53,359 nt of DNA, taken from the NCBI GenBank assembly GCA_007693765.1, contig RECZ01000122.1:1-53359 (forward strand), written 5' to 3'. Source of the stretch: Phycisphaerales bacterium. GTDB taxonomy: Bacteria > Planctomycetota > Phycisphaerae > Phycisphaerales > UBA1924. The translations under genes were made by a program, and so were the position numbers. The notes under the pieces were generated by a model. The model was not told where the DNA came from and did no database searches. It was given only the letters and a program-made list of their open reading frames with translations. Of the stretch, positions 18,108-45,504 are shown in pieces. Position 1 is the stretch's first letter, and each line of letters starts with the position of its first letter.

Positions 18108-18130
18108 GACGGGCCGCCGCCGCCCGCGTC
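18108..18130. terminator. Weak hairpin between recJ and the GspF-like gene
   Basis: GGGC (18111-18114) can pair with GCCC (18122-18125), extended by GAC/GTC with a small bulge. It lies between the convergent ends of recJ and the pilus operon. There is no T-tract, and it may not act alone. Confidence 0.25.
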
Positions 18131-19346: not shown

Positions 19347-19349
19347 CGG

Positions 19350-23516: not shown

Positions 23517-23536
23517 CTCTCGATCTCCTGGGGCGG

Positions 23537-25048: not shown

Positions 25049-25088
25049 TCGTGGGGCTCCAGCATGTGTTCGTTCAGAGGACGGATGT

Positions 25089-28372: not shown

Positions 28373-28402
28373 CTCTGTGTTTCTGTCGGCGACGGTCGCC
28401 GG

Positions 28403-30296: not shown

Positions 30297-31516
30297 GCGG
30301 CGCCCCTTGTGTGTTGCGTCGGCGCTTCCGCGGCGGGCGCAGCGCTCTCCGCTCGCAGGGCGCGAGCCCGCGTGTTGTCCTCCAGACGAAGGCAGAGCCC
30401 CGCGGCCCCGGCCCATTGGGTCAAGTAGCCGCGGCGGTCGCCGCCGATGAATGTCGCATCGGTGGTGTTGAACCCGTCGAACGGATTTCCCACGAACGTG
30501 TCGATGCCGGTGACATCCTTGACAGCGTCGCAGAGGCGGGGTTCGCCGGCGTTGCCGCCCACGAGTTGGATCGACTCCGGGCGTTCGCCCCGGAAGGTGA
30601 CCATGTAGTAGCGCACACACAGCGTCGCTTCCTGCGCAAGCTCTGTGAGCAGCGGCCGCACCGCGTCGAAGATCGCGCGGTCCACGAGCGGATCGACGCC
30701 GTCCGCGGGCGCGCCGGCGTCGCTCTCCGGACGCATCCGCTGGCGCCGGATCTCTTCGGCCGTGCCGACATCGAGAGAGAGTCGCTTGGCCGCGGCCTCG
30801 TCCAGCCGCGCGCCGCCCCATTCGAGCTGCTTGTAGAAGGCGAGCGAGTCGCCGCGCAGCACCATCACCCCGGAGGATTTGGCCCCGATGTCGATGACGA
30901 TGCGAACGTGGCGCTGGTCGCTCTGTCGCCGGTGTCGCCAGCCCATCGCGCGGGCGCAGGCGACGAACGAGGGCTCGCAGGCCATCGGCTGGAGGCCCGC
31001 GCCGGAGACGGCCTCGATCGCGTGCTCAGCGTGTTCGTGTGTGGCCCCGACAAGGATGATCTCGTCGCGCACCTCGTCGCCCTGACGCACCTCGCCCGCC
31101 CGCATCCAGCCGATCTCGCAGCGGACCTCCTTGAGCCCGAGCCGCGCGGCGCCGTCCACCCGGAGCGCGTTGTCGGCGTCGTTGTCCGCCATGTGAGGCA
31201 GACGCACGGAGCGAACTTTGACGCTCTGGTTGTCCAGCCCGATGACGCAGCGCCGCCCGATGAAGCCCGCGGCCTCGACCCGCGCTGCGATGGCCTCCGA
31301 GTACATGCGCGCACACCGCGCGGGGTCTTCCTCGCCTTGGGGCGCCTCCACGCGGGCAGCGCCGACAACGCTCCACACGCCACGCGACTTGCGGAGCTGC
31401 ATCAGCTTCGCGCCGCTGGCGCCGAAATCGACGCCGATGGGCGTCAGGCCGCGTTGGATGAGCCTCTCGAGCACGAGACTTATTCTCTTTCGACGGCGCT
31501 CAGCGCCGGGGTGCAT
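30293..31516 (-). CDS. pilM: PilM-like actin-fold pilus assembly ATPase
   Basis: Cytoplasmic actin-like protein that recruits PilN and links the alignment complex to the motor. The 407-residue product has the phosphate-1 motif IGVDFGASGAKLMQL, phosphate-2 IVIDIGAKSSGVMVL and the adenosine motif IQLVGGNAGEP. The C-terminal 30 residues are Ala-rich. The start at 31516 overlaps the preceding gene by 17 bases. A GTG at 31474 would remove the overlap and start 11 residues before the first motif, so either is possible. Confidence 0.85.
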   Translation of the reverse strand: MHPGAERRRKRISLVLERLIQRGLTPIGVDFGASGAKLMQLRKSRGVWSVVGAARVEAPQGEEDPARCARMYSEAIAARVEAAGFIGRRCVIGLDNQSVKVRSVRLPHMADNDADNALRVDGAARLGLKEVRCEIGWMRAGEVRQGDEVRDEIILVGATHEHAEHAIEAVSGAGLQPMACEPSFVACARAMGWRHRRQSDQRHVRIVIDIGAKSSGVMVLRGDSLAFYKQLEWGGARLDEAAAKRLSLDVGTAEEIRRQRMRPESDAGAPADGVDPLVDRAIFDAVRPLLTELAQEATLCVRYYMVTFRGERPESIQLVGGNAGEPRLCDAVKDVTGIDTFVGNPFDGFNTTDATFIGGDRRGYLTQWAGAAGLCLRLEDNTRARALRAESAAPAAEAPTQHTRGAA

Positions 31517-31823
31517 CGTCCTTGGTCACAACTTCCACCTTCACGCCGCGCCCCGTTTCGAGTTGGCGGCGCAGGGCCTCGATCTGGTCGTTGAGGCGCT
31601 GGAGTTCGTGCACGATGGAGTTGCGTTGATCCGCGGGGTTCACCATCGCGGGCGCGCCCTGGCCGCTGCGGCTCTGGGCGATCGCCTGCGATTCAACCCC
31701 CGTGCCCGAACCGCGCACAAGCACACACACCAGCAGAACGCACGCCAGGACCAGCAGCGCCCGCTGCGCACCCGGGCGGGCGTCGGGCGTCGCGTGGTCG
31801 ATCGATGGCGTCGTCGTGCGCAT
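31500..31823 (-). CDS. Small membrane protein with C-terminal coiled coil
   Basis: A 107-residue protein not matched to a known family. One membrane segment (ALLVLACVLLVCVLV) lies near residues 22-36. It is followed by a loop and a heptad helix (IVHELQRLNDQIEALRRQLE), ending with a basic/acidic tail. The ATG at 31823 has GGAG about 8 bases upstream. A start 20 codons earlier has none. It lies between the prepilin and PilM genes, so it could be an accessory assembly or anchoring factor. This is inferred from position only. Confidence 0.6.
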   Translation of the reverse strand: MRTTTPSIDHATPDARPGAQRALLVLACVLLVCVLVRGSGTGVESQAIAQSRSGQGAPAMVNPADQRNSIVHELQRLNDQIEALRRQLETGRGVKVEVVTKDDAPRR

Positions 31824-32062
31824 GGCTGCTCTCCGATTGTGCAGGAGTGGGGCGAGCATCGCCCGTTTCTCCGTTTCGGACATCGGCGGACGCCGGGCCT
31901 GAAATCAGTCAAACATTCGTTGCGCCGCCCGCGCGCGCGAAGACGGCGCGTCTCTCCGTGGCGTACGAGGCGGAGCTTCCGTGCTCCCGCCCATACGCCC
32001 GGAGACGACGCGCCGTCCGGGCGGTGTTCGCCCGTTATGCGTGTCGCTCGTGGGCCGCCGGA

Positions 32063-32521
32063 TCAGTCGGCGGATTCGTGCGAGAACTTGCCGTCGGGGA
32101 AGTCGGCGCTGGGGACCGGGTCGAAGCCGGTGGCCCAGATGCCGCCGTCGTTGTCGGTCGCCCAGCCGGAGGTCGCGGCGGCCTTGGTGACGGCCATCGC
32201 GGTGCTCTCGCCGACGACGATGTTGAACAGCCCGACGTAGCCGTTGTAGGGCTTGTCCTTGAGGTAGTTCTTGCTGATCATCTCGCCCCAGCCGTCGTGC
32301 TCGGAGCCGCCCAGTGTGGGGTACTGGCCGGCGTGCTGCACGCGGTAGAGCTCGAGCTGGCTGCTGATGGTCTGCAGCTGGCTCCGCAGCGAGCTCTTGA
32401 TCGCCGACTCGCTGGCGTTCGTGAACTGGGGGATGACGATCGCCGCGAGGATCCCGAGGATCACCACAACGATCAGCAACTCAACCAACGTAAACCCGGG
32501 GGCGCGAACTCGGCGCATCAT
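32063..32521 (-). CDS. Prepilin / major pseudopilin (GspG or PilA type)
   Basis: A 152-residue prepilin. The class III signal is very short (MMRRVRAPG) followed by FTLVELLIVVVILGILAAIVIP, with Glu at mature position 5. This is the classical substrate of a prepilin peptidase and the helical spine of the pilus. The globular part contains LRSQLQTISSQLELYRVQHAGQYPTL, as in GspG-like pilins. AGGAG lies 6-7 bases before the ATG pair at 32516-32521, which rejects the 39-codon longer frame. No peptidase gene is in the window. A 228-base gap before it may carry its own promoter. Confidence 0.95.
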   Translation of the reverse strand: MMRRVRAPGFTLVELLIVVVILGILAAIVIPQFTNASESAIKSSLRSQLQTISSQLELYRVQHAGQYPTLGGSEHDGWGEMISKNYLKDKPYNGYVGLFNIVVGESTAMAVTKAAATSGWATDNDGGIWATGFDPVPSADFPDGKFSHESAD

Positions 32522-32749
32522 GGCTTGCTCCTGACAAAGCGCGGGCGTCGCGCACCCGCCTGACTCGTGATTCTCCTCCCCGGACGGATCGCCGACCGGG
32601 CTGACAGGAGCATCGTCAGCGGGCGCGTCAAACTTCACACGGCCGGAGATTTCGATCGTTCAATCACCGCGATTGTGCGGGCGCGCTTGACAGCCGGCCG
32701 TTTGTATACGGGGCGGTGTCCGAGAAAAACGGGGACCGGCCTCTCTCGA

Positions 32750-34930
32750 TCAGCGAACGCCCAGAATGAGGGGCGCGAGCCGGTCGTCGGGGAGATTCAG
32801 CGAGCCCATCACCGCGGCGGCAGCGGTGGCGATCTCGATGTCCGCATCGTGGGTCAGCTGCTCGACGCGACGCACCAGGCGGTCGTCGAGCATCGTGCCG
32901 TGGCGCCGGGCGGATTCGCTCGCCGTCCGCAGCAAGGCGATGCGGTCGGAGCCGCTGGCGTTGAGCGCGGTCTCCATCAGACGGTTCTGGGCCTCGCGGT
33001 CGCCGATGTGCGCCAGCACCTCGGCGAGGTCCAACCGGACGCGGCCCTCGGTGCGCTCGAGCGCCAGCAGCAGCGGGCGCAGGGCGTCGGAGACCATGTA
33101 CACGCGGCTGCCGCTGATCGCCAGATCGCGGAGCGACCGCAACGCATCGAGCGAGTACGCCCGGACCTGATCCTGCGTCAGCGCGGGCCCGGAGGCACGC
33201 TCGACGAGCGAAGAGATCGAGGCGCCGAGCTGCTCTTCGGTCACGCCGGCGCGCACTGCGCGGGTGAGGGGTTCGGTCTCGAAGCCGACGGCGAGTTGGT
33301 TGTACGCGGCGCTGGGCAGGAGCGCCAGCACCGGCGTGGCGCCCAGCCGGGCCGAGGTCCGGACCTGCTCAACGAGCGCCGTGGTTCGCGCTCCGGTGAG
33401 ATCGCTCACGATGACGTCGACGCCGGGGGCGTCGGCGATGGCGTTCATTGCCTCGGAGAGCGACGCGGCCGGCGGCAGCACCGTGTAGCCCATCGACTGG
33501 AGCGTGCGCATCAGCGACTGCTGCCGCTCCATCTCCGAGGCGATCACGACCGCGAAGCGGTCGGCCCCGTCACGGATGGCGCTGGCGAGGATCGGCACCA
33601 CGCGCTCCGAACCCGGGAAGGGCTCTTGGGCGTGGGCACGGGCGAGGACCAGGGCTGCTTCGAACTGCACCCGCCGGTCGGGGTAGAGCAGCGCGGCGAT
33701 CAGGGCGTGGTCCTCGGAGGCGCCACTCCACATCGCGGCGCCGCCGGCGACGCGCGAGAGCGCCGCGATGGCGAGACGGGCGAGCGCCGTGTCGCGGTCG
33801 CGCAGCGCCCGGGCCAGCACGGCCTCCAGCGGCCGCTCGCCTGCGGCGACGGCGTAGTACATCGCGCTGCGTCGCTCGGGGCCGTAGAAGGGGTTGTCGT
33901 AGTCCAACGGCTGGAGCGTCTCGCGGTTGAAGTTGGCGGCGATCCAGAGCGTCACGGCGCCGTGTGTCGTCGGGTCGAGCCGCAGGGCCCGCTCGGCGAG
34001 GCGCATGGCCATCGATTCGTGGAAGACGTCCGTCAGCACCGGGATCGCGAACAAGCCCACGCCGGGCTCGAACGACCAAGCCAACTGGAATTCCTCATCG
34101 GGGAACCGCGTGAGGCTGAGCGGCCTGCCGAAGTGCCGCTCGCCGAGGCCGACATACAGGGCGCCGAGGCTGGCGCTGGGGTCGGCCTGCGGGTCGATCT
34201 CACCGATCGCGCGGAGGGCTGCGCGGCGGACATCGGCGCTGGCGGTGGTGCGGGCCGTCTCGGTCAGGAAGGGAATGGCCTCGGTGTACCCGATGCGACC
34301 CAGGATGCGGGCCAGCCGCTCCTGCAGCGCGGGCTCGGCGCCGAGCAGAGCCACGCTCAGCGGGGCGACGACGCTGCCGCCCATCCGTACGAGCAACTCC
34401 TGCGTCTCCGCCTGCACCATCGGCTGGCTGCCGCGGGACAGGGCCTCAAGCAACTGCGGGGCGGCGTACTCGCTGGCGAACAGGAGGCGCTCGCGGGCCA
34501 GCATCCGGGCCCGCTGCGTCTCGCCGAGCAACTCGATATTCCGCGTGACCTCGGCCGGGTCGCGGGCGCGGTCGAGCCGGCCCTGCTGGTAGAGGCGGAA
34601 GAGCGAGGACGCGACGCCCTCGAGCGACTCGTCCCGCATGGCCCGGCGGACGGCCTCGTCGAAGCGCTGCGCCGTCTGGGGGGAATCCTCGATGAGCCCG
34701 GCGAACTCCACCGCGGAGAGCCCGCGTTCGAGCAGGGCGTTGCCGAAGGACTCGGCCAGCGTCTTCTGATCGATCTTCACGTAATGGATGAAGTCGGTCA
34801 GGAGCTGCTCGGTCGTCAGCTGCGATTCGCCCTGCGCGTTCGCCGTCGGCGTCGAGCCCGAAGGGGCCCCGACAATAAGGCTGCACGAGGCGAGAAGGGC
34901 GATAAGCGTCGATGAGGCACGGTGCGGCAC
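32750..34930 (-). CDS. Exported HEAT-repeat protein with embedded receiver-like domain
   Basis: A 726-residue protein with a signal-like N-terminus (STLIALLASCSLIVG). Residues about 120-260 and 330-450 contain HEAT-like helical pairs, for example RLARILGRIGYTEAIPFLTETAR. A domain of about 458-580 looks like a CheY-type receiver: FAVVIASEMERQQSLMRTL, YTVLPPAASLSEAMNAI, then DVIVSDLTG with Asp510 where the phospho-acceptor would be. HEAT repeats resume to the end. The GTG at 34930 has AGGAG at good spacing. A receiver-like domain in an apparently exported protein is unusual, and the domain may be a degenerate fold. It heads the pilus block. Confidence 0.8.
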   Translation of the reverse strand: MPHRASSTLIALLASCSLIVGAPSGSTPTANAQGESQLTTEQLLTDFIHYVKIDQKTLAESFGNALLERGLSAVEFAGLIEDSPQTAQRFDEAVRRAMRDESLEGVASSLFRLYQQGRLDRARDPAEVTRNIELLGETQRARMLARERLLFASEYAAPQLLEALSRGSQPMVQAETQELLVRMGGSVVAPLSVALLGAEPALQERLARILGRIGYTEAIPFLTETARTTASADVRRAALRAIGEIDPQADPSASLGALYVGLGERHFGRPLSLTRFPDEEFQLAWSFEPGVGLFAIPVLTDVFHESMAMRLAERALRLDPTTHGAVTLWIAANFNRETLQPLDYDNPFYGPERRSAMYYAVAAGERPLEAVLARALRDRDTALARLAIAALSRVAGGAAMWSGASEDHALIAALLYPDRRVQFEAALVLARAHAQEPFPGSERVVPILASAIRDGADRFAVVIASEMERQQSLMRTLQSMGYTVLPPAASLSEAMNAIADAPGVDVIVSDLTGARTTALVEQVRTSARLGATPVLALLPSAAYNQLAVGFETEPLTRAVRAGVTEEQLGASISSLVERASGPALTQDQVRAYSLDALRSLRDLAISGSRVYMVSDALRPLLLALERTEGRVRLDLAEVLAHIGDREAQNRLMETALNASGSDRIALLRTASESARRHGTMLDDRLVRRVEQLTHDADIEIATAAAAVMGSLNLPDDRLAPLILGVR

Positions 34931-35077
34931 GTGGGGCTCCTGTTGCGTGTCACCGGGAACGGAGAGGAGGCCGCCGCGCGCTCCCCGAGCGACGCCGCGG
35001 GACCAAGAGGTACGCACGCTACGCGCAAGGTGTTGACCGCAATCCGACGAGCCGCCCGTCAGGGTGACGTGGGGGTC

Positions 35078-35105
35078 AAGATACGCTCCGTCACCGACCC
35101 GTCAA
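35078..35105 (-). promoter_or_regulatory. Candidate sigma-70-type promoter for the pilus operon
   Basis: On the minus strand TTGACG (35105 to 35100) is followed after 16 bases by TATCTT (35083 to 35078). Transcription would begin near 35071 and leave a leader of about 140 bases before the HEAT-repeat gene. Confidence 0.4.
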
Positions 35106-35148
35106 CCCGAGCGGTCCCGCCACCCCGGATTCGCCGGATCGGTCTCGG

Positions 35149-37116
35149 TCAGCCGCCGGCCGCGAAGCCGAGGTGGTCATCCAGCCAGTCGTCGGCGCGA
35201 AGCACCCCCGCACGCCGGCGGCGCCCCTCCGCCTCCGCCCGCGACTGCGCTGACCGCACCGTGGCCCGGCTCGCCCAGCGTACCCCCCCGATGCAGGCCA
35301 ATCGCAGAGCCCGGGGAGCGTGGCGGAGCACGACCTCGTCGTCCAGCGAGACCACGCGTCGATACGAGCCCGGGTCGCCCTGCCGTGCGCACCGCCCGGC
35401 CAACTGGCGGTCCAGCCGTCGTGCCGGGTTGGCCTCGGCGCAGATGACGTGCAGCCCCCCCGCCGCCGCGACGCCCTCGCCGAGCGCGATGTCCGTCCCC
35501 CGCCCGGCCATGTTGGTGGCCACGGTGATGCGTCCCGCCTCGCCGGCGCGAGCGACGACCGCCGCCTCTTCCTCGTGGCGCTCTGCGTTGAGGACATCGC
35601 GCGCAGCGCCCGCGTCGCGGAGCATCGACGCGATCGCCTCGCTCTCGCGCACCGTGCGCACGCCGATAAGCACCGGTCGGCCCTTGTCGCGCACGCGCAT
35701 CGCCTCCGCGACGACCGCGCGGCGTCTCCCTTCCGCCCCCGCGTAGACACGCTGCGGCAGCACATCGCGGGCGCTGGGACGGTGCGTCGGCACGCGCTCG
35801 AACGCCAGCCGATAGAGGCGCCAGCATTCGCGCCGGACTTCGTGCGCCGTGCCGGTCATGCCGCACAGGCGGGGGTAGAGCCGGAAGAACCGTTGAAAAC
35901 TGATGCGCGCCAGCGTGCCGGGCGGGGCGTTGGGGGCGAGACCCTCTTTCGCCTCGATCGCCTGGTGGACGCCCTCACGCCACGAGCGGTCGGGCGTGGC
36001 CCGCCCGGTGGACTCGTCGATGATCACGATGCGCCCGTCGCGCACGCTGTACTGCGCCCCGCGCTTATAGAACAAGCGGGCGCTCAGGGCGTGCGTCACC
36101 ACCTCCTCCCGCCGTCGCGCCGTGGACCATGCCGACGACGCCAGAGCGCCGTCCGCCTGCACCTTGGCGAGCCCGGACCGTGTGAGCCGGACGTCGCGCG
36201 CGGCTCGGTCGGCCTTGTAGTGCTCGCCTTCGCGCAGTTCGCCGACGATCACGGAGGCGAGCCGGTGGGCGTGGGCGAGCCCCGGGTCGGCGGCGCCGCC
36301 GGCGATGATGAGCGGCGTCGCGGCCTCGTCGATCAGCACGGCGTCGGCCTCGTCCACCACCGCGCACGCCAACCCACGCTGCACAACGCCCGACCACCGC
36401 GCCGGCGCGGCGTCGTAGCACGCCTCGATCGCCGCCCACGAGGCGCGGGCCCCGCGCCCGAGCACGAGACGATCGCGCAGGTAGTCCGCCGCGGCCTCCT
36501 TGCCGGTGCAATACGTGAGGTCTGCGCTGTACGCCTCTCGCCGTTCTTCGTGGCCCGTCTCCTGCGCGATGGAAGCCACGCGAAGGCCCGCGCGACGGTA
36601 GACGGGCGCCATCCACGCCGCGTCGCGCTGCGCGAGGTAATCGTTGGCGGTCACGACGTGGCAGCCGCGTCCCCGCCACGCCCACAGCGTCGCGGGGATG
36701 GTCGCGCAGAGTGTCTTGCCCTCGCCGGTGGCGATCTCGGCGATCCGCCCGCGTGCAAGGGCCAGGGCGCCGTGAACCTGCCCCGCGTGCGGACGCTGGC
36801 CGAGTTCACGCCACGCCACCTCGCCCATCGCGGCGACGGCACGCACGATCTCATCATCTGTTTCGCGACCACGACGGAAGGCCGCACGCAGCGCCGAGAG
36901 GGCTTCGTCGAGGCACGCATCCGCCATCCGCGCGAACTCCTCCTCGAGCCCGCGCACACGGGCCGCCTCGACGCGGCAGTCGGTGCGACGCAGGCGCATC
37001 ACCAGCGCATCGCGGGCGTCCGTCCAGAGGGCGTCGAGGCCGCGCAGCGGGCGCCTGTCGCGCAGGGCATCGCCGAGCGCACGCCGCACGTCCGTCGCCG
37101 ACGGCGCAGCGCTCAC
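35149..37116 (-). CDS. SecA-like ATPase, C-terminally truncated paralogue
   Basis: A 655-residue relative of the preprotein translocase motor SecA. NBD1 carries the Walker A EIATGEGKTLCA (GEGKT 131-135) and Walker B VVDEADAVLIDEA. A preprotein-binding region follows (about 240-380), with YSVRDGRIVIIDESTGRATPDR. NBD2 has FRLYPRLCGMTGTA, TNMAGRGTDIAL and GRCARQGDPG. The protein stops shortly after NBD2. It has only the beginning of the helical scaffold and lacks the wing domain and the zinc-binding C-terminus of normal SecA (about 830-900 residues). The GTG at 37116 overlaps the upstream stop as GTGA, so it is translationally coupled to the M50-HlyD gene. Confidence 0.88.
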   Translation of the reverse strand: MSAAPSATDVRRALGDALRDRRPLRGLDALWTDARDALVMRLRRTDCRVEAARVRGLEEEFARMADACLDEALSALRAAFRRGRETDDEIVRAVAAMGEVAWRELGQRPHAGQVHGALALARGRIAEIATGEGKTLCATIPATLWAWRGRGCHVVTANDYLAQRDAAWMAPVYRRAGLRVASIAQETGHEERREAYSADLTYCTGKEAAADYLRDRLVLGRGARASWAAIEACYDAAPARWSGVVQRGLACAVVDEADAVLIDEAATPLIIAGGAADPGLAHAHRLASVIVGELREGEHYKADRAARDVRLTRSGLAKVQADGALASSAWSTARRREEVVTHALSARLFYKRGAQYSVRDGRIVIIDESTGRATPDRSWREGVHQAIEAKEGLAPNAPPGTLARISFQRFFRLYPRLCGMTGTAHEVRRECWRLYRLAFERVPTHRPSARDVLPQRVYAGAEGRRRAVVAEAMRVRDKGRPVLIGVRTVRESEAIASMLRDAGAARDVLNAERHEEEAAVVARAGEAGRITVATNMAGRGTDIALGEGVAAAGGLHVICAEANPARRLDRQLAGRCARQGDPGSYRRVVSLDDEVVLRHAPRALRLACIGGVRWASRATVRSAQSRAEAEGRRRRAGVLRADDWLDDHLGFAAGG

Positions 37117-39341
37117 CCTGCGCCCCCCACCGAACGTGCGCCAGCCGACGCGGCCGCACCGGCCCGATCGCGTTGCAGTGTTTGCCGCAGCAACCGCAAC
37201 CACTGCGCCCCGAGCGGCCGGGCGGGCGCCTCGAACCGCACGACGACGCGCTCGCCCAGACGAAGGGCGGCGTCGTCGTCGGGCTCGATCCGTGCCTCGA
37301 AGAACCGTTGACGGGCGCGCAGGCCCGTCTGGTCCGCGGGGTCGAGCAGCGTGTCGCCGCCGCCGGCGATGCCCAGCGCGGCGGCGGGGAGCGTGTCGCG
37401 CCCACCGGGGGCGATGTCGATCACCGTCCCGTGCAGAAGTTGTTCGGCCCTGCCGGGGACGCGCATCTGGACGCGCTCCCCGCCCCGCCCCAGCGCCGCC
37501 GTGGCCTGCTGCCGGATCACCACCCGCACGATGCGCCCCGTATCGCCGGCCACCGCGCCGAGAGAATCGCCGGCGCGCACGAAGGCGGGGGCGCCCGCGT
37601 CGAGATCGGGCGCGATCCAGACGCCGTCGAAGGGCGCGACGATGCGCCGGGCGCCGATGCGCTCGCGGACGAGGGTGATGCGGTCGTCCAGGGCGGCCAG
37701 CCGGTCCGCCGCGGCCTGCGCCTCGCTCGCGTCTCGCCCCAGCGCGATGCGGCGGCGCGCCTCGTGCTCGCGTCGCTGGGCGAGCAGCATGGCGAGTTCG
37801 GCGTCGTGCTCGGCGTTGACGAGTTCGACGAGTGGGTCGCCGGCGGGTGAGACACGGTCGCCGGTCACGAGCCGCGAAAGCACGAACCCCTCAACGGGGG
37901 CGTGGACCTCGGCGTACCGCGCCGGCTCGACCACGCCGTGCGCGCGGGGGCGGTCGGGCGCGGGCACGAGGCCGATCAAGATGACCAGCGCACACGCCGC
38001 GCCCAGCGTGGTGGCGAGGGCGCGGGGACGTGTGCGCTCCAACTCGGGGCTCGTCAGCAGATAATTAATGAACTTGGCGCCCGGCAGCACCAGCCATCCA
38101 TACAAGGCCAACGCGGCCAGCGCCACGCCGAGCACGAAGAATCGCCCGCTGACGAACAAGATGATCGCGCCGAACACGAACACCTTGTAGACGCCGGATG
38201 TGATCGCGTACGCGATGAGCCACCGGGCCTCGCGTGCCCCGGCCGCGGGCCCTTGTGCCCGGCGCACACCCCAGACCCGACGCTTCACCAGCGCATAGAG
38301 CTGCTCCTGCGAGCGTTTGGCGAGGTTGGGCGTCTCGAGTAGGTCGGAGAGGATGTAGTACCCGTCGAAGCGCAGCAGCGGGTTGGCGTTGAACACGATC
38401 GTCGAGACACCGGCGATGACGATGGCGTTGTACGCCAGCGCGTTCGCCGCGCTGTGGTCACCCGTGCGGGCCCAGACGATCATCGCGAAGAAGGCGATCA
38501 GCAGTTCCACGTACATGCCCGCTGCGCCCACCACCGCGCGCCGCCACTTGCCGCGCAGCGACCACGCGCTGGTCGCATCCACGTAGGGGACGGGCGTGAG
38601 CACCAACAGCATCAGCCCCGCCTCGTGCACGGCGCCGGCGTCGGGGGGCGGGTCGCCGGCGTGCTCGGCGCGGGCCATCGCCTTGCACGCGACGCCGTGC
38701 CCGATCTCGTGCATCGCCTTGATCACCACGAAGGCCAGCAGCAGCAGCGGCAGGTTCGATGGCGCCAGCACCCCGGCCGCGCCTTCGAAGAACTCCCGCT
38801 CACGCCCCGGCACGTGTAACGCGGCGATGACGCCCACGAGCAGCCACGCGCACACGCCCCACGGGCGAAAGAGCCAGCCGAGGACCGGCGCGAGGCGGTC
38901 GAGGAGGCGGTCGGGGTCCAGCAATGGGATGCGGAGGAAGAGCAGGCTCAGGGCTCTACCCTTGGTCTCACGCTCCACGCGCTTGCGCCGGCGGCGCAGC
39001 AACGCCTCGGCGTCGTCGGGCAGATCGGGGCGCAGCAGATTGGCGGTGTAAAGCGCGCTGAGGATGGCGATGGCCTCGCCCTGCGTCGGCGCATCGTCGC
39101 CCGCGCGCTCCTGCGCGATCCGCCACGCCTCCCCCACCGTCCTCCCGCCGTCGAGCAGACCGACGAAGGCGTACGCGCCGGGGCTGCAACGGGCGTGCTG
39201 GGCGCTGCCGGGCTCGCTGAAGACGCGCCACGTCTCGCCGCGACAACGGACCCGCGTCGACTGCACGTGCGGCCGCAGGCTCGGGCGGAGCGCCTCAACG
39301 AGGCTCCACGACTCGCTGAACGTGGGGCGTTGCACGCTCAT
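37113..39341 (-). CDS. PqqD-like/M50 site-2 protease/HlyD fusion protein
   Basis: A 742-residue membrane protein. Residues about 25-115 resemble a PqqD-type winged helix (YAFVGLLDGGRTVGEAW, AILSALYTANLLRPD). About 135-400 form a polytopic M50-like core with the zinc motif HEIGH at 211-215 and NPLLRFDGYY near 319-328. From about 455, after a membrane segment, is an HlyD-type biotinyl-lipoyl barrel (EVHAPVEGFVLSRLVTGDRV, then IVAPFDGVWIA) with a coiled-coil hairpin between. The zinc site appears intact. The ATG at 39341 is preferred to a GTG three codons earlier. Similar fusions are known in Planctomycetota, but their substrate is not established. Confidence 0.85.
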   Translation of the reverse strand: MSVQRPTFSESWSLVEALRPSLRPHVQSTRVRCRGETWRVFSEPGSAQHARCSPGAYAFVGLLDGGRTVGEAWRIAQERAGDDAPTQGEAIAILSALYTANLLRPDLPDDAEALLRRRRKRVERETKGRALSLLFLRIPLLDPDRLLDRLAPVLGWLFRPWGVCAWLLVGVIAALHVPGREREFFEGAAGVLAPSNLPLLLLAFVVIKAMHEIGHGVACKAMARAEHAGDPPPDAGAVHEAGLMLLVLTPVPYVDATSAWSLRGKWRRAVVGAAGMYVELLIAFFAMIVWARTGDHSAANALAYNAIVIAGVSTIVFNANPLLRFDGYYILSDLLETPNLAKRSQEQLYALVKRRVWGVRRAQGPAAGAREARWLIAYAITSGVYKVFVFGAIILFVSGRFFVLGVALAALALYGWLVLPGAKFINYLLTSPELERTRPRALATTLGAACALVILIGLVPAPDRPRAHGVVEPARYAEVHAPVEGFVLSRLVTGDRVSPAGDPLVELVNAEHDAELAMLLAQRREHEARRRIALGRDASEAQAAADRLAALDDRITLVRERIGARRIVAPFDGVWIAPDLDAGAPAFVRAGDSLGAVAGDTGRIVRVVIRQQATAALGRGGERVQMRVPGRAEQLLHGTVIDIAPGGRDTLPAAALGIAGGGDTLLDPADQTGLRARQRFFEARIEPDDDAALRLGERVVVRFEAPARPLGAQWLRLLRQTLQRDRAGAAASAGARSVGGAG

Positions 39342-39354
39342 CCCGCGCACCGCC

Positions 39355-41196
39355 TCACAGCCACAGCCTCAGCCGCACCCAATCCACGAGCGCACGCGTC
39401 CACACCGCCGCGCGGCGCCCTTGCCCCGCGTCGATCTTCGCGACGCCCTCCGCCCCGGGACGCATCCACGCCTCGGGGCCGTCGAGTGTGGCGATGACGC
39501 GACGAACGCTCCGGCCCCCGACGATGCGCGGCGCCGGGTCGACGCGCTCCACCGTGAAGCCGATGCGTGATTCGGGACGCGACGCCGGCGCCAACTCGCC
39601 GCGGGCGCCGACGTGAACCCTCGCGCCCTCGGCGTCTGGCACGTCGATCTCCGCTCGCAGTCCGTCGAGGCGGACGATCTCGAAGAGCGCCTCCCCGCGG
39701 GTCACGGGCGCGTGGAGTCGCCTGTCGAGATCGCCATCAACGATCACGCCGTCGATGGGCGAGACCACCGCGGCCGTGGCGAGCCGGTGCTCGAGCAGGT
39801 CGATGCGGGCGCCGACGCGGGCCGCGTGCGCCTGCGCGATCTGCGCTTCGGCGGTGCGCCCGTCGCGCATGGCGCCGGTGGCCTCGCGGTCGTGGGCTGT
39901 GCGCTCTGCGCGCAGGCCAGCGAGTTCGAGGCGGAGTTCGGAGGCGTCGAGCGAGAACAGGACCGTCTCGCCCGCGGCCACGGCGTCGCCGATGCGCACG
40001 TGCACCCGCTCGATGCGGCCGTCGAAGGGCGCCGCGGCGATGTGGCGGGCGACGGGCTCCAGCGTGAACGCGCCGGACACGCGGGCCGTGGTCGAGGTCA
40101 GCAGCGCGAAGGCGAGGAACGCGAGGGCACAGATCGCGCCGAGCTTGATCCACGTCTGCGTCGGGCCCAGCACCCACGCGAGCGCAGCGCGAACATCGTG
40201 CACGAAGCGTGTCCCGAACCAGCGGTCGCGCTCGCGCAGATCGAAGACCCGCGGCCCGGCGAGCTCCATCGCCAGGGCCACGCCCGCGGCGGCATCGGCG
40301 GACCACGGCGCCTCGCGCTCCAGCGTCGCCACCCCCACCGTCTCGCCCGAGCGCCGCAGGGGCACGCTCAGAACGCACGCCGAGCCGTGCGCCTTGGCCA
40401 GCCGTGCGTGGTCCCGTGCAATGCACACCGCGTCGGGCGGCTGCGGGTGGGCGATGGGCTCGTCCTGATCGGCGCACTCCTCCATCGCGCGCTGTGTGTC
40501 GTGCGCGACCCGCGATGTGCGGGCGATCTTCTCCGTGTGGCTGACTGCCAGCAGGCGCGCACGCCCGTGCCGGAACGACCCGAGGCTCACCCGGTCGCAC
40601 CCCCACCGCGACGCCGCCTCATTGCAGAGCCGCGCAGCGCAGGCGAACCAGCGCGCATGCTCGTTGCACGCGGCCACGATCTCCAGCGCAGCGCGCGCCG
40701 CGATCGGCGGCGCTTCACCCTGTCGCGACGCTCGTTCGTGCGCCGCCTCGGCGAGCGCGACGAGTTCATCCAGGAACGCCGCGCGGACCAGACAGCCCCG
40801 CAATTCGTCGCCGTCATCCGATGGAGATTCGATGAGCAACACCCCCACCGCCCGCACCCCGGCGCCGCGCTCGGTGATCGGCGCTGCGCACACGGTGCGC
40901 TGATCGTCCGCAGGGTCGACCATCGCGACGACGCGGCCCTCCGCCTCGCACTCCCGCGCCATGGCCCGCACCTGCGCGGCGTGGTGAGGCTGCGCGAGCG
41001 CTTCGAGCGACCCGCTCGGATCGTGCTGGGCGATGACCTCGAAGGGCGCATCCGCGCGTTCGCGGCGCAGCACGATCGCCGCGACCGCGGGCGTGAGGTC
41101 GCACGCCCGCCCCAGCACCCACCCGAGCGTGCCGGGGGCGTCCCCGCGAGTCCTTGCAGGATCGGCCGCGGCGGGGATGGACGGCGTCGTCGTCAT
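39355..41196 (-). CDS. GAF-domain protein fused to an HlyD-type adaptor
   Basis: A 613-residue bitopic protein. The first 345 residues are soluble with one weak GAF-like region (about 20-150) and a clearer one (about 175-320, CNEAASRWGCDRVSLGSF to SVPLRRSGETVGVATLE). One membrane segment lies at about 348-367 (AICALAFLAFALL). After it is an HlyD-type adaptor: RHIAAAPFDGRIERVHVRIGD, a coiled-coil hairpin, and TAAVVSPIDGVIVDGDLD. The topology would put the sensor in the cytoplasm and the adaptor in the periplasm. It lies 13 bases before the M50-HlyD gene. The ligand of the GAF part is unknown. Confidence 0.83.
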   Translation of the reverse strand: MTTTPSIPAAADPARTRGDAPGTLGWVLGRACDLTPAVAAIVLRRERADAPFEVIAQHDPSGSLEALAQPHHAAQVRAMARECEAEGRVVAMVDPADDQRTVCAAPITERGAGVRAVGVLLIESPSDDGDELRGCLVRAAFLDELVALAEAAHERASRQGEAPPIAARAALEIVAACNEHARWFACAARLCNEAASRWGCDRVSLGSFRHGRARLLAVSHTEKIARTSRVAHDTQRAMEECADQDEPIAHPQPPDAVCIARDHARLAKAHGSACVLSVPLRRSGETVGVATLEREAPWSADAAAGVALAMELAGPRVFDLRERDRWFGTRFVHDVRAALAWVLGPTQTWIKLGAICALAFLAFALLTSTTARVSGAFTLEPVARHIAAAPFDGRIERVHVRIGDAVAAGETVLFSLDASELRLELAGLRAERTAHDREATGAMRDGRTAEAQIAQAHAARVGARIDLLEHRLATAAVVSPIDGVIVDGDLDRRLHAPVTRGEALFEIVRLDGLRAEIDVPDAEGARVHVGARGELAPASRPESRIGFTVERVDPAPRIVGGRSVRRVIATLDGPEAWMRPGAEGVAKIDAGQGRRAAVWTRALVDWVRLRLWL

Positions 41197-41245
41197 ATCT
41201 TTTCTCGCGCGCGTCACGCGGGAGATCCGGGGGCGCGGTCGGCGC

Positions 41246-41255
41246 ATGATACGAT
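41246..41255. promoter_or_regulatory. Overlapping divergent -10 elements between the HlyD-type genes
   Basis: The sequence ATGATACGAT reads as TATCAT on the minus strand (toward the GAF-HlyD gene) and as TACGAT on the plus strand (toward the HlyD adaptor gene). It lies inside the 157-base divergent spacer. No good -35 was found for either direction. Confidence 0.3.
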
Positions 41256-41353
41256 CACCCCCGTTGGCGCCCAAAGCCCGGCGTCAGACGCCGACGCACG
41301 CTCGCTTCCCGGACCGGCGACGCCAGCCACCAACGCCGAAGGAGCCACTCCCC

Positions 41354-42283
41354 ATGCGGCACGTATTCGCGATCTGCGTCCTCACAGCGACGATCTTCGC
41401 CCCCGTGGTCGTCGCACAGGCGCCCGGCGACCGCATCGAGGCCATCGCCACGGCGCGCCACGACCGGCTCCTCGCCTTCACCGTCGGCGGGCGCGTCGCC
41501 ACGCTGCTCGTGGCGCCGGGGGACTCCGTCGAGGCCGGGCAACTGCTCGTCGAACTCGACGACCGCGAGGAGGCCGCCCGCGTGGCCCACCTTGAGGAGC
41601 GCGTCGCCAGCGACGCCGAGGCCCGCGCCGCCGAGGCCCGCCTGCGCCTCGCCGAGATCGAAGAGGCCCGCGCCCGCGACGCGCTGGCCCGAGACGCCGC
41701 GGCGCGGTTCGAGGTCGAGCGGTACGCCCTCGAAACGACGCTGGCCCGAATCGCGCTGGAACTGGCCCGCGCCCGCCACGCGGAGACCCGACACGACCTC
41801 GATATCGCACGGCTGCGCTTCGATCAGCGTCGGCTGCTCGCTCCCGTGTCGGGCGTTGTGGAGGAAATCCGGGCCGAGGAGGGCGAGACCGTGCAGCCGT
41901 TGGCCCCCGTGCTGCGGCTGGTGAGCGTCAATGAACTGCGGGTGGACGTGCGGGTGGACGCCGCACGCACCCTGGACATGTTCGTAGGCGACGAGGCGTG
42001 GGTATGGTCGTCTTTGGAGCCGGACTCGCCGCCCGTGGTCGGGAAGATCGCCCACATCGGAGGCGTGGCCGACCCGGCCAGCGACACGCGGCTGGTGCGT
42101 GTCGACGCCCCAAACTGGCCCAACGCCCCGGCCGGCGTGCGCGTGTTCGTCTCCTTCGAGCGCCCGGAGGGGCCCGACGACCCGCGGTCCCCCTCGCCCT
42201 TCGACCACCTGCTCCGCTCGGCGCGGCCGGGCAACGGCGTGTGCCACCAAGGGTTCGCGCTCAAGAGTGGTTCTCGGCCCTGA
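41354..42283 (+). CDS. HlyD/RND-type periplasmic adaptor protein
   Basis: A 309-residue exported membrane-fusion protein. The signal peptide (IFAICVLT-like start, ending VVVAQA near residue 22) is followed by the barrel-sandwich half FTVGGRVATLLVAPGDSVEAGQ. A long coiled-coil hairpin (about 75-150, rich in Glu, Ala and Arg) leads to the second half LLAPVSGVVEEIRAEEGETV and a beta-barrel. AAGGAG lies about 10 bases before the ATG. It has no transporter partner next to it and is divergent from the GAF-HlyD gene, so it probably belongs to the same envelope system. Confidence 0.88.
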   Translation: MRHVFAICVLTATIFAPVVVAQAPGDRIEAIATARHDRLLAFTVGGRVATLLVAPGDSVEAGQLLVELDDREEAARVAHLEERVASDAEARAAEARLRLAEIEEARARDALARDAAARFEVERYALETTLARIALELARARHAETRHDLDIARLRFDQRRLLAPVSGVVEEIRAEEGETVQPLAPVLRLVSVNELRVDVRVDAARTLDMFVGDEAWVWSSLEPDSPPVVGKIAHIGGVADPASDTRLVRVDAPNWPNAPAGVRVFVSFERPEGPDDPRSPSPFDHLLRSARPGNGVCHQGFALKSGSRP

Positions 42284-42411
42284 GTCGCGCGACGGGGCGG
42301 GCAGGTCCGCGAACGCACGCCCGGTGCGGCGACGCCGATGTCGGGAGCGTCCGGATATGGGGGATTTCACCGCCCAAGCCTGCGCATCATCAAGCGTGGG
42401 CCGTGTCGCGT

Positions 42412-42425
42412 CGATGCAAGCATCG
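42412..42425. promoter_or_regulatory. 14-bp palindrome upstream of the HTH-receiver gene
   Basis: CGATGC and GCATCG arms are separated by AA, giving a near-perfect dyad about 57 bases before the start codon. It is a candidate operator, possibly for the regulator itself. Chance occurrence in GC-rich DNA cannot be excluded. Confidence 0.3.
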
Positions 42426-42481
42426 CACTTGTCGACGCCTGGAGGAGGGCGCCGCCGAGCCGCATTACAGGGGCGACGCTC

Positions 42482-43060
42482 ATGCCAGTGGCCAAGGATG
42501 TCCTGACAACCGGGGAAGTCGCGAAGATCTGCAACGTGGCCCCACGCACGGTGAGCAAGTGGTTCGATTCCGGGCAGCTCAAGGGGTACCGCATCCCCGG
42601 CTCGAAGGACCGCCGCATCCCGCTCAACCAGCTCGTCCGTTTCATGAAGGAGCACGGCATCCCGCTCGACGGCCTCAACACCGGCCAGACGCGGGTGCTG
42701 ATCGTCGACGATGAGCCCGAGGTGCTCGACTCGCTCAAGAAGGTGCTCACCGAGCAGGCCAACTACGAGGTCCGCACCGCCACGAACGGCTTCCAGGCCG
42801 GTCTCGAGTGCGAGCGGTTCAAGCCGCACGTCATGCTGCTCGACCTGCACATCGACAACGGCGACGCCCGACGCGTGAGCGACCTCGTCCGCAGCAGCGA
42901 CGACCTGCAGATGACCCGGATCATCGCCATGAGCGGCAAGCTCACCGACGGTCAGGCCGCGCAGCTCAAGGGGCAGGGCTTCGACTCGTTCCTGAAGAAG
43001 CCCTTCGCGGTGCGGCAGGTCGTGCAGGCGATCGAGCAGGCCACGAACGTCGCGGCCTGA
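42482..43060 (+). CDS. HTH-receiver regulator (N-terminal excisionase-type HTH, C-terminal REC)
   Basis: A 192-residue regulator. Residues 5-55 are an excisionase/MerR-type DNA-binding helix-turn-helix (LTTGEVAKICNVAPRTVSKW, then GYRIPGSKDRRI). After a linker, residues about 70-190 form a receiver: LIVDDEPEV, phospho-acceptor Asp in VMLLDLHIDNGD, Ser in IIAMSGK, and Lys in FLKKPFA. The order is the reverse of most response regulators, where the receiver comes first. GGGG lies about 9 bases upstream of the ATG. No kinase is adjacent. It is convergent with ygfZ across a small hairpin. Confidence 0.9.
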   Translation: MPVAKDVLTTGEVAKICNVAPRTVSKWFDSGQLKGYRIPGSKDRRIPLNQLVRFMKEHGIPLDGLNTGQTRVLIVDDEPEVLDSLKKVLTEQANYEVRTATNGFQAGLECERFKPHVMLLDLHIDNGDARRVSDLVRSSDDLQMTRIIAMSGKLTDGQAAQLKGQGFDSFLKKPFAVRQVVQAIEQATNVAA

Positions 43061-43074
43061 TCACGCCCCCATCG

Positions 43075-43087
43075 CGGCGCTGCGCCG
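43075..43087. terminator. Small hairpin between the HTH-receiver gene and ygfZ
   Basis: CGGC and GCCG arms around GCTGC (43075-43087), between convergent genes. The stem is short and has no T-run, so it is a weak candidate. Confidence 0.3.
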
Positions 43088-43093
43088 AACCCG

Positions 43094-44296
43094 CTACGCC
43101 CTATTCCAGAACGCCAGTTGCGGCTGCACGCGCATCTCGATGCGCGTGTCTTCCGCGTTCACGAGCAGCGTCGCGCCGGTCTCTGACCACTTGTGCTTCA
43201 CCTGCGCGAAGCACACCGGCTCGCCCTCGAGCATCGGGCTGAGGGTGCTGCTGGTGACGGCGCCGACGATCTCCGCCGCGTCGCCCTCGTCGGTCGATTG
43301 CATCACGAACACCTGCGCACCCGACACGGGCAGGCGGGCGTCGCCGTCGAACGGGGCCGCCCGGCGGAGCCCGACGAGTTGCTGCTTGGAATGGCCGCGG
43401 GAGTGCATCCGCGCCACCACCTCCTGCCCGAGGTAGCAGCCCTTGCTGAACGACACGCGGTCGTTGAGCACGCCCGTCTCGTGCGGCAGCGAGTTGGGCC
43501 CGAAATCAATGTTGTAGACGGGCCAGCCCGCCTCGATCCGCGCGATGTTGTACGCGTGCCACCCCGCCAGCCGCATGCGGTAGCGCCCGGGCGGCGCGCC
43601 CTGCTCGGGGCCGTTGCCGTTGACGCCGTCCACGCCGCGCTCGGCGAGAGCGTTGTAGATGCGCTCCACGTGCTCGGTCGGGACCAGCAGTTCCAGACCG
43701 ATCTCGCCGGTGGAGTCCTGCCGGTCCACGAGCACCACGGCCTCGCCGATGCGCACCGCGCTGACGGCGCCGGGCGCGAGGTCCGACAACGGCGCGCCCT
43801 CGGCGTGCGTGCAGACGCTCGCCAGCGTGTCCACCGCGGTGGGGCCGTGCAGCGCGAGGCGTCGGTGGGCCGCGCTCGCGTCGGCGATCTCCACGTCCTC
43901 CGCGAAGAGGAACGCCCCGAGGGTCTCCACCACGCGCGGCGCGGCCAGCACATCCACATCGAAGAGCGTGCGGTCTTCGAGCTCGAGCACCCGCAGGTCG
44001 GCGTCGATGCGCCCCTTGCGGTTGAGCCAGAACGAGCGGACGCAGCGCCACGGGCGCACCGTCTTGAGTTCCTGCGTGAGCATGCGGTTGAGGAACTCAC
44101 GCCGGTCGGCGCCGCGCACGACGACCGTCGCCCGCTGGGGCTGATCCAGCAGCACGCACCCGTTGCGCAGCGCGGCGTACTCGGCCTCGATGTCGCCGAA
44201 CGTCTCGACGATCTCGACGCCCGGCGCCCCGGCGTAGGGGAGGAGTGATGCTTCCGCCTGCTGGTGATGCTTGCGGAGCGGGTCGTGCTCGGCCAT
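43094..44296 (-). CDS. ygfZ: YgfZ/GcvT-like folate-binding protein
   Basis: Folate-dependent protein that helps repair or assemble certain iron-sulfur enzymes. The 400-residue product has the aminomethyltransferase-like fold and the diagnostic KGCYLGQEVV near residues 285-294, with the conserved Cys. EFLNRMLTQEL and TGEIGLELLVP also fit the GcvT/YgfZ group. It is longer than the E. coli protein (326 residues), mainly by N-terminal and internal loops. A true GcvT is less likely because the KGCYxGQE motif marks YgfZ. It is divergent from the M42 peptidase and convergent with the HTH-receiver gene. Confidence 0.85.
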   Translation of the reverse strand: MAEHDPLRKHHQQAEASLLPYAGAPGVEIVETFGDIEAEYAALRNGCVLLDQPQRATVVVRGADRREFLNRMLTQELKTVRPWRCVRSFWLNRKGRIDADLRVLELEDRTLFDVDVLAAPRVVETLGAFLFAEDVEIADASAAHRRLALHGPTAVDTLASVCTHAEGAPLSDLAPGAVSAVRIGEAVVLVDRQDSTGEIGLELLVPTEHVERIYNALAERGVDGVNGNGPEQGAPPGRYRMRLAGWHAYNIARIEAGWPVYNIDFGPNSLPHETGVLNDRVSFSKGCYLGQEVVARMHSRGHSKQQLVGLRRAAPFDGDARLPVSGAQVFVMQSTDEGDAAEIVGAVTSSTLSPMLEGEPVCFAQVKHKWSETGATLLVNAEDTRIEMRVQPQLAFWNRA

Positions 44297-44343
44297 GATC
44301 CTCTGGTCCTCGAACGGATCGGACGCGGTTTCGATTCGTCCAA

Positions 44344-44351
44344 ACTATACA
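44344..44351. promoter_or_regulatory. Divergent -10-like patch between ygfZ and the M42 peptidase gene
   Basis: The AT-rich ACTATACA reads as TATAGT on the minus strand (toward ygfZ) and TATACA on the plus strand (toward the peptidase). It is the only AT-rich stretch in the 113-base spacer. No good -35 was identified. Confidence 0.35.
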
Positions 44352-44409
44352 CCTCGCACCGCGCGTCATCGCCGCTTCGCGGGGCGCCGCACAAAGGAAC
44401 CGATCGCCC

Positions 44410-45504
44410 ATGCCCGCATCCTCGCTCAACGTCGATCTGCTCAAGCGTCTCTGCGAAACCGCCGGCGTGCCCGGGCGCGAAACCCGCGTGCGCGACCTCA
44501 TCCGCAAGGAGATCAAGGGCCTCTTCGACGACGTCCGCGAGGACGCCATGGGCAACCTGCTCTGCACCCGCAACCCGCGGCCCGCCAAGGGCGGCGACGG
44601 CGCGAAGAAGAAAGGCTCGAAGGAGCCCGTCCGCGTCATGCTCCCCTGCCACATGGACGAGATCGGCTTCCTCGTCCGCCACATCGACGACAAGGGCTTC
44701 GTCCGCGTCAACGCCGTCGGCGGCTTCGACACCCGCAACCTCTTCTCCCGCCGCGTGCTCGTCTGCGCCAGGTCCGGCGACCTGCACGGCGTCATGAACC
44801 CCGGCGGGCGCCCCATCCACATCGCCACCGAGGAGGACAAGAAGAAGATCCCCGAGGTCAAGGAGTTCATGATCGACCTCGGCCTCGATCCCGACGAGGT
44901 GAAGAAGAAAATCGCCATCGGCGACATGGTCGTCCTGCACGAGCCCTTCATGGAGATCGGCCACAAGGTGGTGAGCAAGGCGCTGGACAACCGCGTCGCC
45001 TGCTGGCTGGGCATCGAGAGCGTCCGCGCGCTGGACAAGTCCGGCAAGGGCCACGCGTGCGAGGTCCACGTCGCCTTCACGGTGCAGGAGGAAGTCGGCC
45101 TGCGCGGCGCCAAGACCGCCGCCGCCGCGATCAAGCCCCACTTCGCCATCGGCCTCGACGTCACCCTCTCGTGCGACACCCCCGGCGTGCCCGAGGACGA
45201 GGCCGTGACGATCCAGGGCAAGGGCGCCGGCCTGCACGTGATGGACTCGTCCTTCATCTCCGACGCCGAACTCATCGACGACCTCGAAGCGCTGGCCAAA
45301 AAGCACAAGATCCCCGTGCAGCGCACCATTCTTGCGCGCGGAGGGCAGGACGGCGCCGCCGCCCAGCAGATCGGCGAGGGCTGCCGCGCCGCGGGCGTGG
45401 TCGTCGGCACGCGCTACATCCACACCGTCACGGAGATGGTCGACAAACGCGACCTCGAAGCGGCCCGCGACCTGCTCGCGGCGTGGATGGAGACGGTGGG
45501 GTGA
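44410..45504 (+). CDS. M42-family aminopeptidase (FrvX/glutamyl aminopeptidase type)
   Basis: Dinuclear-metal cytoplasmic aminopeptidase of 364 residues. The metal and catalytic motifs are LPCHMDEIGFLV (HxD), KALDNRVACW (DN), FTVQEEVGLRGA (catalytic EE) and IGLDVTLSCDTP. ILARGGQDGAAAQQ fits the position usually occupied by GTDA, and HTVTEMVDKRDLEAA near the end carries the final His ligand. The length suits the family. Members form tetrahedral dodecamers that trim peptides. There is an unusual Lys-rich loop near residues 55-70. The gene appears monocistronic, with a strong hairpin after it. Confidence 0.92.
   Translation: MPASSLNVDLLKRLCETAGVPGRETRVRDLIRKEIKGLFDDVREDAMGNLLCTRNPRPAKGGDGAKKKGSKEPVRVMLPCHMDEIGFLVRHIDDKGFVRVNAVGGFDTRNLFSRRVLVCARSGDLHGVMNPGGRPIHIATEEDKKKIPEVKEFMIDLGLDPDEVKKKIAIGDMVVLHEPFMEIGHKVVSKALDNRVACWLGIESVRALDKSGKGHACEVHVAFTVQEEVGLRGAKTAAAAIKPHFAIGLDVTLSCDTPGVPEDEAVTIQGKGAGLHVMDSSFISDAELIDDLEALAKKHKIPVQRTILARGGQDGAAAQQIGEGCRAAGVVVGTRYIHTVTEMVDKRDLEAARDLLAAWMETVG

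Follow-up and report, generated by a model that had tools for sequence, protein, structure and literature searches.

A conserved operon for a SecA paralogue and M50-HlyD, GAF-HlyD and HlyD proteins in a Phycisphaerales bacterium, with LEPR-XLL proteins as its most likely cargo class

We describe four neighbouring genes at positions 35149-42283 of a 53,359-nucleotide contig from a Phycisphaerales bacterium (RECZ01000122.1, assembly GCA_007693765.1; this whole stretch of DNA is called the window). They code for a secondary SecA_DEAD-type ATPase (the SecA paralogue), a fusion of PqqD-like, M50 site-2-protease-like and HlyD domains (M50-HlyD), a GAF-HlyD fusion, and a lone HlyD-type adaptor. The operon is real and deeply conserved, and the most likely class of its cargo is formed by LEPR-XLL proteins, often very large, because their genes co-occur with the operon, and often adjoin it, across distant bacteria. 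The association is strongly supported, and export, as predicted from sequence, is moderately supported. A fuller proposal, to which we give an even chance, is that of a distinct system in which the SecA paralogue as a motor, the PqqD-M50 protein as a leader-recognising intramembrane protease, and the HlyD adaptors would jointly export LEPR-XLL proteins, some of them longer than 10,000 residues and provided with a non-hydrophobic N-terminal leader, in Planctomycetota, Verrucomicrobiota, Pseudomonadota and other phyla. The locus has been known since 2015; judging from open-licence papers, the cargo assignment is new. With this link, the locus and the LEPR-XLL tag both become testable, with regard to which genes bring bacterial proteins of very large size out of the cell, and to a possible cooperation of a second SecA with HlyD adaptors in Gram-negative bacteria.

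Association of the operon with LEPR-XLL genes

The lead came from genes neighbouring the operon in related genomes, some of which are very large: in 4 of 20 regions, a large open reading frame (ORF) with an N-terminal L-E-x-R-x-L-L motif lies beside the operon. When three of these ORFs were compared with the NCBIfam LEPR-XLL model NF012209 (cut-off 17 bits), one scored 21.9 bits, another missed the cut-off by 0.1 bit, and the third yielded no hit. An earlier interpretation of the window, made from its letters alone (the sequence-only reading), had left the cargo open and proposed looking for co-occurrence with genes for large exported proteins or short Cys/Gly-rich peptides; the evidence points to large proteins of the LEPR-XLL type.

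The SecA paralogue was found in 48 of 61 related genomes (best E 3e-90 or lower, with G044 counted here despite having only a more distant copy); in the other 13, matches were weaker and of the housekeeping type (1e-40 to 1e-52), except for G026, which is 81% complete, lacks a detectable SecY and yielded no match. LEPR-XLL proteins scoring over the curated cut-off are present in 40 of the 61 relatives, that is, in 40 of the 48 with the SecA paralogue and in none of the 13 without it (Fisher 3e-8, which, like the Fisher values below, ignores relatedness; with G044 moved, the count is 40/47 versus 0/14). One candidate for a LEPR-XLL genome devoid of the SecA paralogue, G089, was rejected after a divergent copy (158.8 bits) was recognised in its operon. 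On a SecY tree of 58 relatives, from which G060 (fetched stretch not open in the expected frame) and G020 and G026 (no SecY match) were left out, the absence of the SecA paralogue needs 5 changes; for the group that has neither it nor LEPR-XLL proteins, at least 4 of these fall on branches with good support.

Larger samples were screened as well, with LEPR-XLL called at the stricter E <= 0.02 in the phylum and Pseudomonadota sets. Among 294 genomes of the phylum, M50-HlyD (E <= 1e-30) occurs in 30 of the 31 LEPR-XLL genomes versus 37 of the 263 others (Fisher 3e-21). LEPR-XLL was also present in 29 of 38 operon genomes with titles not naming Planctomycetota. The M50-HlyD alignment had been used to scan genome contigs, and the best 80 loci form the set of named loci; the 38 are those among them whose titles lacked Planctomycetota, planctomycete and Phycisphaera group. 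Two titles reading “PVC group” (Planctomycetes-Verrucomicrobia-Chlamydiae) were kept, whereas L155 (“bacterium”) and L162 (Tepidisphaera, taken to belong to Phycisphaerae) were left out. Finally, 54 of 249 genomes of Pseudomonadota, the phylum of the Accumulibacter genome G381, contain LEPR-XLL, with a distribution of 32/33 in genomes with operon-type M50-HlyD (E under 1e-130, a boundary set after seeing the gap from 3e-131 to 7e-102) versus 22/216 in the others (Fisher 1e-24). The latter comprise 18 of the 45 genomes with only a second class of M50-HlyD (about 1e-72 to 1e-102) and 4 of the 171 with neither class. The 14 named control genomes yielded 0 LEPR-XLL matches at E <= 0.02, 1 at E <= 0.05 and 7 at E <= 10, one of the 7 exceeding the cut-off.

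The association extends to physical linkage. Of the 45 operon-type M50-HlyD genes of Pseudomonadota, 20, from 15 genomes, are located within 10 kb of a LEPR-XLL ORF on the same contig, compared to 0.86 expected under even placement, and 24 have no LEPR-XLL ORF on their own contig. For the 16 that are within 5 kb, the LEPR-XLL ORF is always on the same strand (16/16), 1.1-2.8 kb away, about one gene apart, and the linked open frames reach 15,434 residues. ORFs with the strict motif, which had to be 200 residues or longer and to carry it no further in than residue 160, were detected in 4/20 relatives' regions, 7/80 named loci, 0/20 control regions (400 kb), and not at all on reversed DNA; with a looser motif, control regions and reversed DNA gave a single match each, the former in L226. 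All control regions are from Planctomycetota-phylum genomes, and the 80 named loci therefore have no matched control. LEPR-XLL genes were also seen near M50-HlyD in L240, L241 and L251, and a count of 8/17 that included L119-L121, which had been picked for LEPR-XLL seen near the SecA paralogue, is biased and was not used. The genome from which the window derives codes for one LEPR-XLL protein over the cut-off (19.8 bits, contig C61), with a predicted length of 1268 residues.

This linkage bears on an alternative that we regard as quite improbable, namely that the operon exports LEPR-XLL proteins or some other cargo in a type I-like manner, using an ABC transporter and a TolC whose genes lie elsewhere, and that the motif is no export signal or the co-occurrence reflects lifestyle. 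It would account for the HlyD modules, and it draws on a 2015 proposal which related the function to type I secretion and saw a possible pore in the M50 protein (PMC4452313), and on a Vibrio LEPR-XLL protein of about 8000 residues which ends in RTX and serralysin domains (PMC10868602). However, the same-strand linkage and the tight co-occurrence exceed what would be expected from lifestyle, and no ABC transporter or TolC was detected in the ten ORFs scanned, all located at 31805-45504 of the window, to which the search was limited within the window and genome; the sequence-only reading, too, had noted none adjacent to the four genes.

The LEPR-XLL leader

The core shared by 55 LEPR-XLL N-termini is E-x-L-E-P-R-[VIL]-L-L-S-[AG], in which E at -2 is found in 87%, P in 55% and S in 73% of the sequences; since these N-termini were found by pattern, its L, E, R, the following L/M/V and the L/F were imposed. 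The core lies a median of 30 residues from the guessed start and is preceded by a median net charge of +3. These N-termini have no Sec-like hydrophobic stretch: a 12-residue window with a mean hydropathy of at least 1.6 occurs in 0/55 of them versus 11/13 lone HlyD adaptors, in a comparison for which start codons were guessed, the measured window differed slightly between the two sets, and row L031 probably matched by chance. No machinery for the LEPR-XLL tag was found in the open-licence PMC literature, where two papers use the name, once each; this scope does not include preprints and leaves room for publication elsewhere.

Variants of the motif are present on large ORFs near the SecA paralogue: LEDRTLL or LEERTLL in L127, L129 and L130, which share one genus code and contain two LEDRTLL-type giants each beside the paralogue, and LEAREVL in L131. 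The LEDRTLL genomes G128 and G291 yielded no NF012209 match at E <= 0.02. As a separate observation, locus L377 carries a LEPR-XLL ORF of 2514 residues in a genome (G594) without an M50-HlyD match at E <= 1e-10.

Conservation of the operon

The M50-HlyD gene adjoins the SecA paralogue in 28 of 29 loci of the best-scoring relatives, and the 29th ends at a contig edge. Genes in the fetched regions were called with a purpose-made, unbenchmarked script. Of 20 longer regions, for which the SecA paralogue was the selection criterion, all 20 contain M50-HlyD and 18 contain GAF-HlyD, and the lone HlyD was found in 12 by clustering or 13 by profile. The 80 named loci were selected on M50-HlyD alone, and the SecA paralogue is nevertheless present in 72 of them, each time adjoining M50-HlyD, with GAF-HlyD in 73 and HlyD in 60. 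The best named matches to the M50-HlyD family of the window, among these 80, are Phycisphaerae bins, and the titles further include Verrucomicrobiota, Kiritimatiellae, Lentisphaerae, Nitrospira, Desulfuromonas, Accumulibacter, Sulfuritalea, Elusimicrobia, Spirochaetales and Gemmatimonadetes, although titles of metagenome bins may be wrong. The range reported in 2015, as given in the covered part of that paper, was PVC, Proteobacteria, Nitrospirae and also Chlorobi (PMC4452313); Verrucomicrobia, Proteobacteria and Nitrospirae are represented among the best 80, and a Chlorobi title is not. Gene order is thus conserved, more than chance would produce, and homologues are not scattered or unlinked, so that the functional link between the four genes, as well as the envelope export or maturation role that the sequence-only reading had assigned to them, is supported.

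SecY was found as a single copy in each of the 59 genomes with a match (59/59), with no second SecY, and 2 of the 61 relatives (G020, G026) had no SecY match. The possibility that the SecA paralogue has a SecY of its own is therefore not supported.

Organisation of the operon and domain structure of its products

The window represents one whole contig of a 2.9-Mb genome that is 96% complete. Three of the genes are on the minus strand. The SecA paralogue (35149-37116, 655 residues from a GTG within the GTGA overlap; its ORF extends open to a GTG at 37203) overlaps M50-HlyD (37113-39341, 742 residues), which is separated by 13 bases (39342-39354) from GAF-HlyD (39355-41196, 613 residues from the preferred ATG; the ORF extends open to a TTG at 41274). 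The lone HlyD gene (41354-42283, plus strand, 309 residues) is divergent from the other three, leaving an intergenic region, delimited by coordinates, at 41197-41353. All four genes anticipated in this interval are accordingly present by Pfam and coordinates, as are the GTGA overlap and the 13-base gap.

In the SecA paralogue, Pfam recognises SecA_DEAD (1.9e-88), SecA_PP_bind (9.8e-23) and P-loop_SecA (8.3e-44), with no match to the scaffold/wing domain SecA_SW at E <= 0.01. The GEGKT motif is invariant in 21/21 homologues, and other columns are kept as well; this intact motor, along with the zinc motif of the protease described below, agrees with what had been read from the sequence. The window protein remains below the cut-offs of the curated SecA2 models TIGR04397, TIGR04221, TIGR03714 and NF012136. 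On a tree of 33 operon SecAs, the one from the window included, and 11 housekeeping SecAs, including that of the same genome, a single 100/100 branch separates the two sets, and the SecA paralogue is thus not derived from the canonical SecA of its own genome; on this tree row L238 has a very long branch, and 12 rows, the window's among them, have odd composition. The L238 gene (11129-13105, plus strand) is a very divergent SecA paralogue (158.8 bits) within an otherwise normal operon that contains two DUF3467 genes.

The M50 domain of the fusion carries the zinc motif HEIGH (38697-38711, minus strand; residues 211-215), and H211, E212, H215, N318, N320 and D326 are invariant in 20/20 homologues. 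It thus has the HExxH motif and third zinc ligand in a membrane domain that characterise M50 site-2 proteases, and protease activity is predicted. By itself, the window protein matches M50 weakly (E 0.035) and yields no PqqD match; at E <= 0.5, its family matches PqqD in 18/20 and M50 in 20/20 homologues (best 1.3e-9 and 6e-8), so that a PqqD-like domain, with a putative role in leader binding, is supported by the family. Its AlphaFold model (mean predicted local distance difference test score, pLDDT, 85) matches MacA over residues 462-707 (Z 15.8, root-mean-square deviation (rmsd) 2.4, 215 aligned) and, with a middling Z of 8.4, the Methanocaldococcus jannaschii site-2 protease 3b4r over residues 136-416 (rmsd 4.6, 175 aligned); for residues 14-105, the matches are to the C-terminal portions of enzymes that are unrelated, GdmN (Z 9.2) among them.

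GAF-HlyD contains GAF (3.1e-6) and HlyD_3 (5.7e-15), and the lone HlyD matches HlyD_D23 (2.1e-12, measured on the longer ORF 41033-42283) and exceeds the NCBIfam RND_mfp cut-off (109.4 versus 94.9 bits); all three expected HlyD-type modules, in the M50 fusion, the GAF fusion and the lone adaptor, were thus found. By hydropathy, M50-HlyD has seven transmembrane (TM)-like stretches, two of them overlapping; GAF-HlyD has one (residues 350-368), between GAF and HlyD; the lone HlyD has one N-terminal signal-peptide-like stretch, and the SecA paralogue has no TM-like stretch. The GAF domain would also suit a regulatory system, with GAF as its sensor, a membrane regulator as the substrate of M50, and a structural role for the HlyD portions; cleavage of membrane regulators is known from members of the M50 family. 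We assign this explanation a very low probability, as it leaves the three HlyD modules, the SecA motor and the LEPR-XLL linkage unexplained.

A consensus scan detected no sigma-70-like site in 41197-41353. Scanning for promoters and terminators gave one promoter-like site and three terminator-like sites versus 1.8 expected, from which no conclusion is drawn, and an Rfam scan yielded no match at gathering scores. Next but one to the four genes, at 18129-32521 on the minus strand, lies a gene set resembling type IV pilus/type II secretion systems, assigned by eye, with GspE/PilB-, GspF/PilC-, GspD- and PilM/N/O-like proteins and a prepilin with FTLVELLIVVVILG.

Second-class operons and the DUF3467 gene

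In the Pseudomonadota loci L365-L370 and L372-L376, genes for HlyD, an HlyD-type protein and M50-HlyD (about 280-330 bits) occur together, with no SecA paralogue in the regions read, and two loci without the paralogue, L240 (cut by a contig end) and L241, come from the phylum of the window. Second-class operons occur in genomes both with and without LEPR-XLL, and their M50-HlyD lies beside LEPR-XLL genes in L368 and, by coordinates, also in G484, G485, G464 and G604. These findings point to M50-HlyD as the core, with the SecA paralogue as a motor specific to one class.

The same findings lend some weight to an unlikely alternative, in which the system performs maturation or anchoring only: LEPR-XLL proteins would cross the inner membrane by another route, the M50-HlyD complex would act on their N-terminal motif, by analogy with the way sortase-like systems act on C-terminal tags, and the SecA paralogue would be accessory. 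The second-class or SecA-less operons beside LEPR-XLL ORFs (L240, L241, L368) and the intact zinc motif agree with it. Against this, the absence of a Sec-like hydrophobic stretch from LEPR-XLL N-termini means that another route is not evident, and the SecA paralogue adjoins M50-HlyD in 72 of the best 80 loci.

An additional gene for a small DUF3467 protein (PF11950) is found beside the operon in 4/20 relatives' regions and 17/80 named loci, with titles including Accumulibacter, Sulfuritalea and Nitrospira. As a recurrent extra operon gene it was listed in L040, L043, L045, L056, L121, L131, L238 and 17 of L138-L217; it was not found in the window. The predicted fold is bbba (pLDDT 80), for which the best listed matches are COMM/PUR/PC4-like and weak (Z <= 6). 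A SecB-like chaperone had been considered from the sequence pattern, and no SecB is among the fold matches listed; comparison with PDB sequences gave two chance-level matches. In L364 (G416), an operon with the SecA paralogue and DUF3467 is located next to a large ORF of at least 1695 residues without a recognised LEPR-XLL motif.

Proposed mechanism and points against it

If LEPR-XLL proteins are the cargo, we infer that recognition would take place in the cytosol, where the PqqD-like domain of the M50 fusion may bind the N-terminal leader, which is non-hydrophobic and in most cases basic. Transport of the chain across the inner membrane would then be driven by the SecA paralogue, probably via the single SecYEG, since a second SecY was not detected. 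The M50 site-2-protease-like domain would remove or trim the leader at LLSA or close to it. In the periplasm, the three HlyD modules would provide a conduit to a channel in the outer membrane whose gene lies elsewhere, with the GAF domain as a putative gate or sensor.

A number of observations weigh against the cargo assignment or the mechanism, in addition to the relatedness ignored by the Fisher values. An independent-pairs test yielded 4 pairs, on average 3.2 in the same direction and never opposite, which is not significant, nor is the difference between 4/20 and 0/20 control regions when taken alone (p 0.11). There is no LEPR-XLL gene in the window, and in 73/80 named loci no strict-motif ORF was present in the flank fetched. 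LEPR-XLL is missing at threshold from 8/48 relatives with the SecA paralogue, 37/67 M50-HlyD genomes of the phylum, 9/38 operon genomes with other titles and 1/33 operon-type Pseudomonadota (G416), in part because the model misses variants such as LEDRTLL (L127, L130; G128, G291). Conversely, G222 of the phylum sample has LEPR-XLL without M50-HlyD, and G385, G458, G571 and G594 have no or weak M50-HlyD, with a weak LEPR-XLL match in all but G594. Since second-class operons adjoin LEPR-XLL genes, the SecA paralogue is not a universal partner, and 27/45 second-class genomes lack LEPR-XLL. Three of the four genes are reported to be little or not expressed in growing Methylobacterium extorquens AM1, a strain said to carry the operon (PMC4452313), and the C-terminal RTX domains of the Vibrio protein suggest type I export (PMC10868602).

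Comparison with known systems

The sequence-only reading, which knew of no described system with this exact combination, has to be corrected on that point. Kamneva, Poudel and Ward described the locus in 2015, and, judging from the part of the paper covered, it agrees with that of the window in having a SecA_DEAD protein without SecA_SW next to M50+HlyD, GAF+HlyD and HlyD (PMC4452313). Its broader role was termed “completely unknown” there, and no cargo is named in that part, a term search of the main text returning neither LEPR, giant nor cargo; relative to it, the LEPR-XLL link, the PqqD domain and the DUF3467 gene are additions of the present analysis.

The closest NCBIfam match of the M50 fusion is the daptide intramembrane metalloprotease NF041824 (2.2e-37, residues 46-422 of the 745-residue ORF), from which it differs by a score of 129 bits versus a cut-off of 300, by the HlyD fusion and by gene context. 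With the accessory Sec (SecA2/SecY2) and SecA2-only systems the operon shares a dedicated second SecA, and accessory Sec also relies on an N-terminal signal of its own, which is carried by large repetitive adhesins; the operon differs in the lack of a second SecY (59 genomes), in scores below the cut-offs of the SecA2 models, and in its other partners and leader. Type I secretion (HlyB/HlyD/TolC), for which large cargo is known, is similar in its HlyD-type periplasmic adaptors; the operon differs from it in that the ten scanned window ORFs include no ABC transporter or TolC, and in that the conserved motif of its probable cargo is N-terminal.

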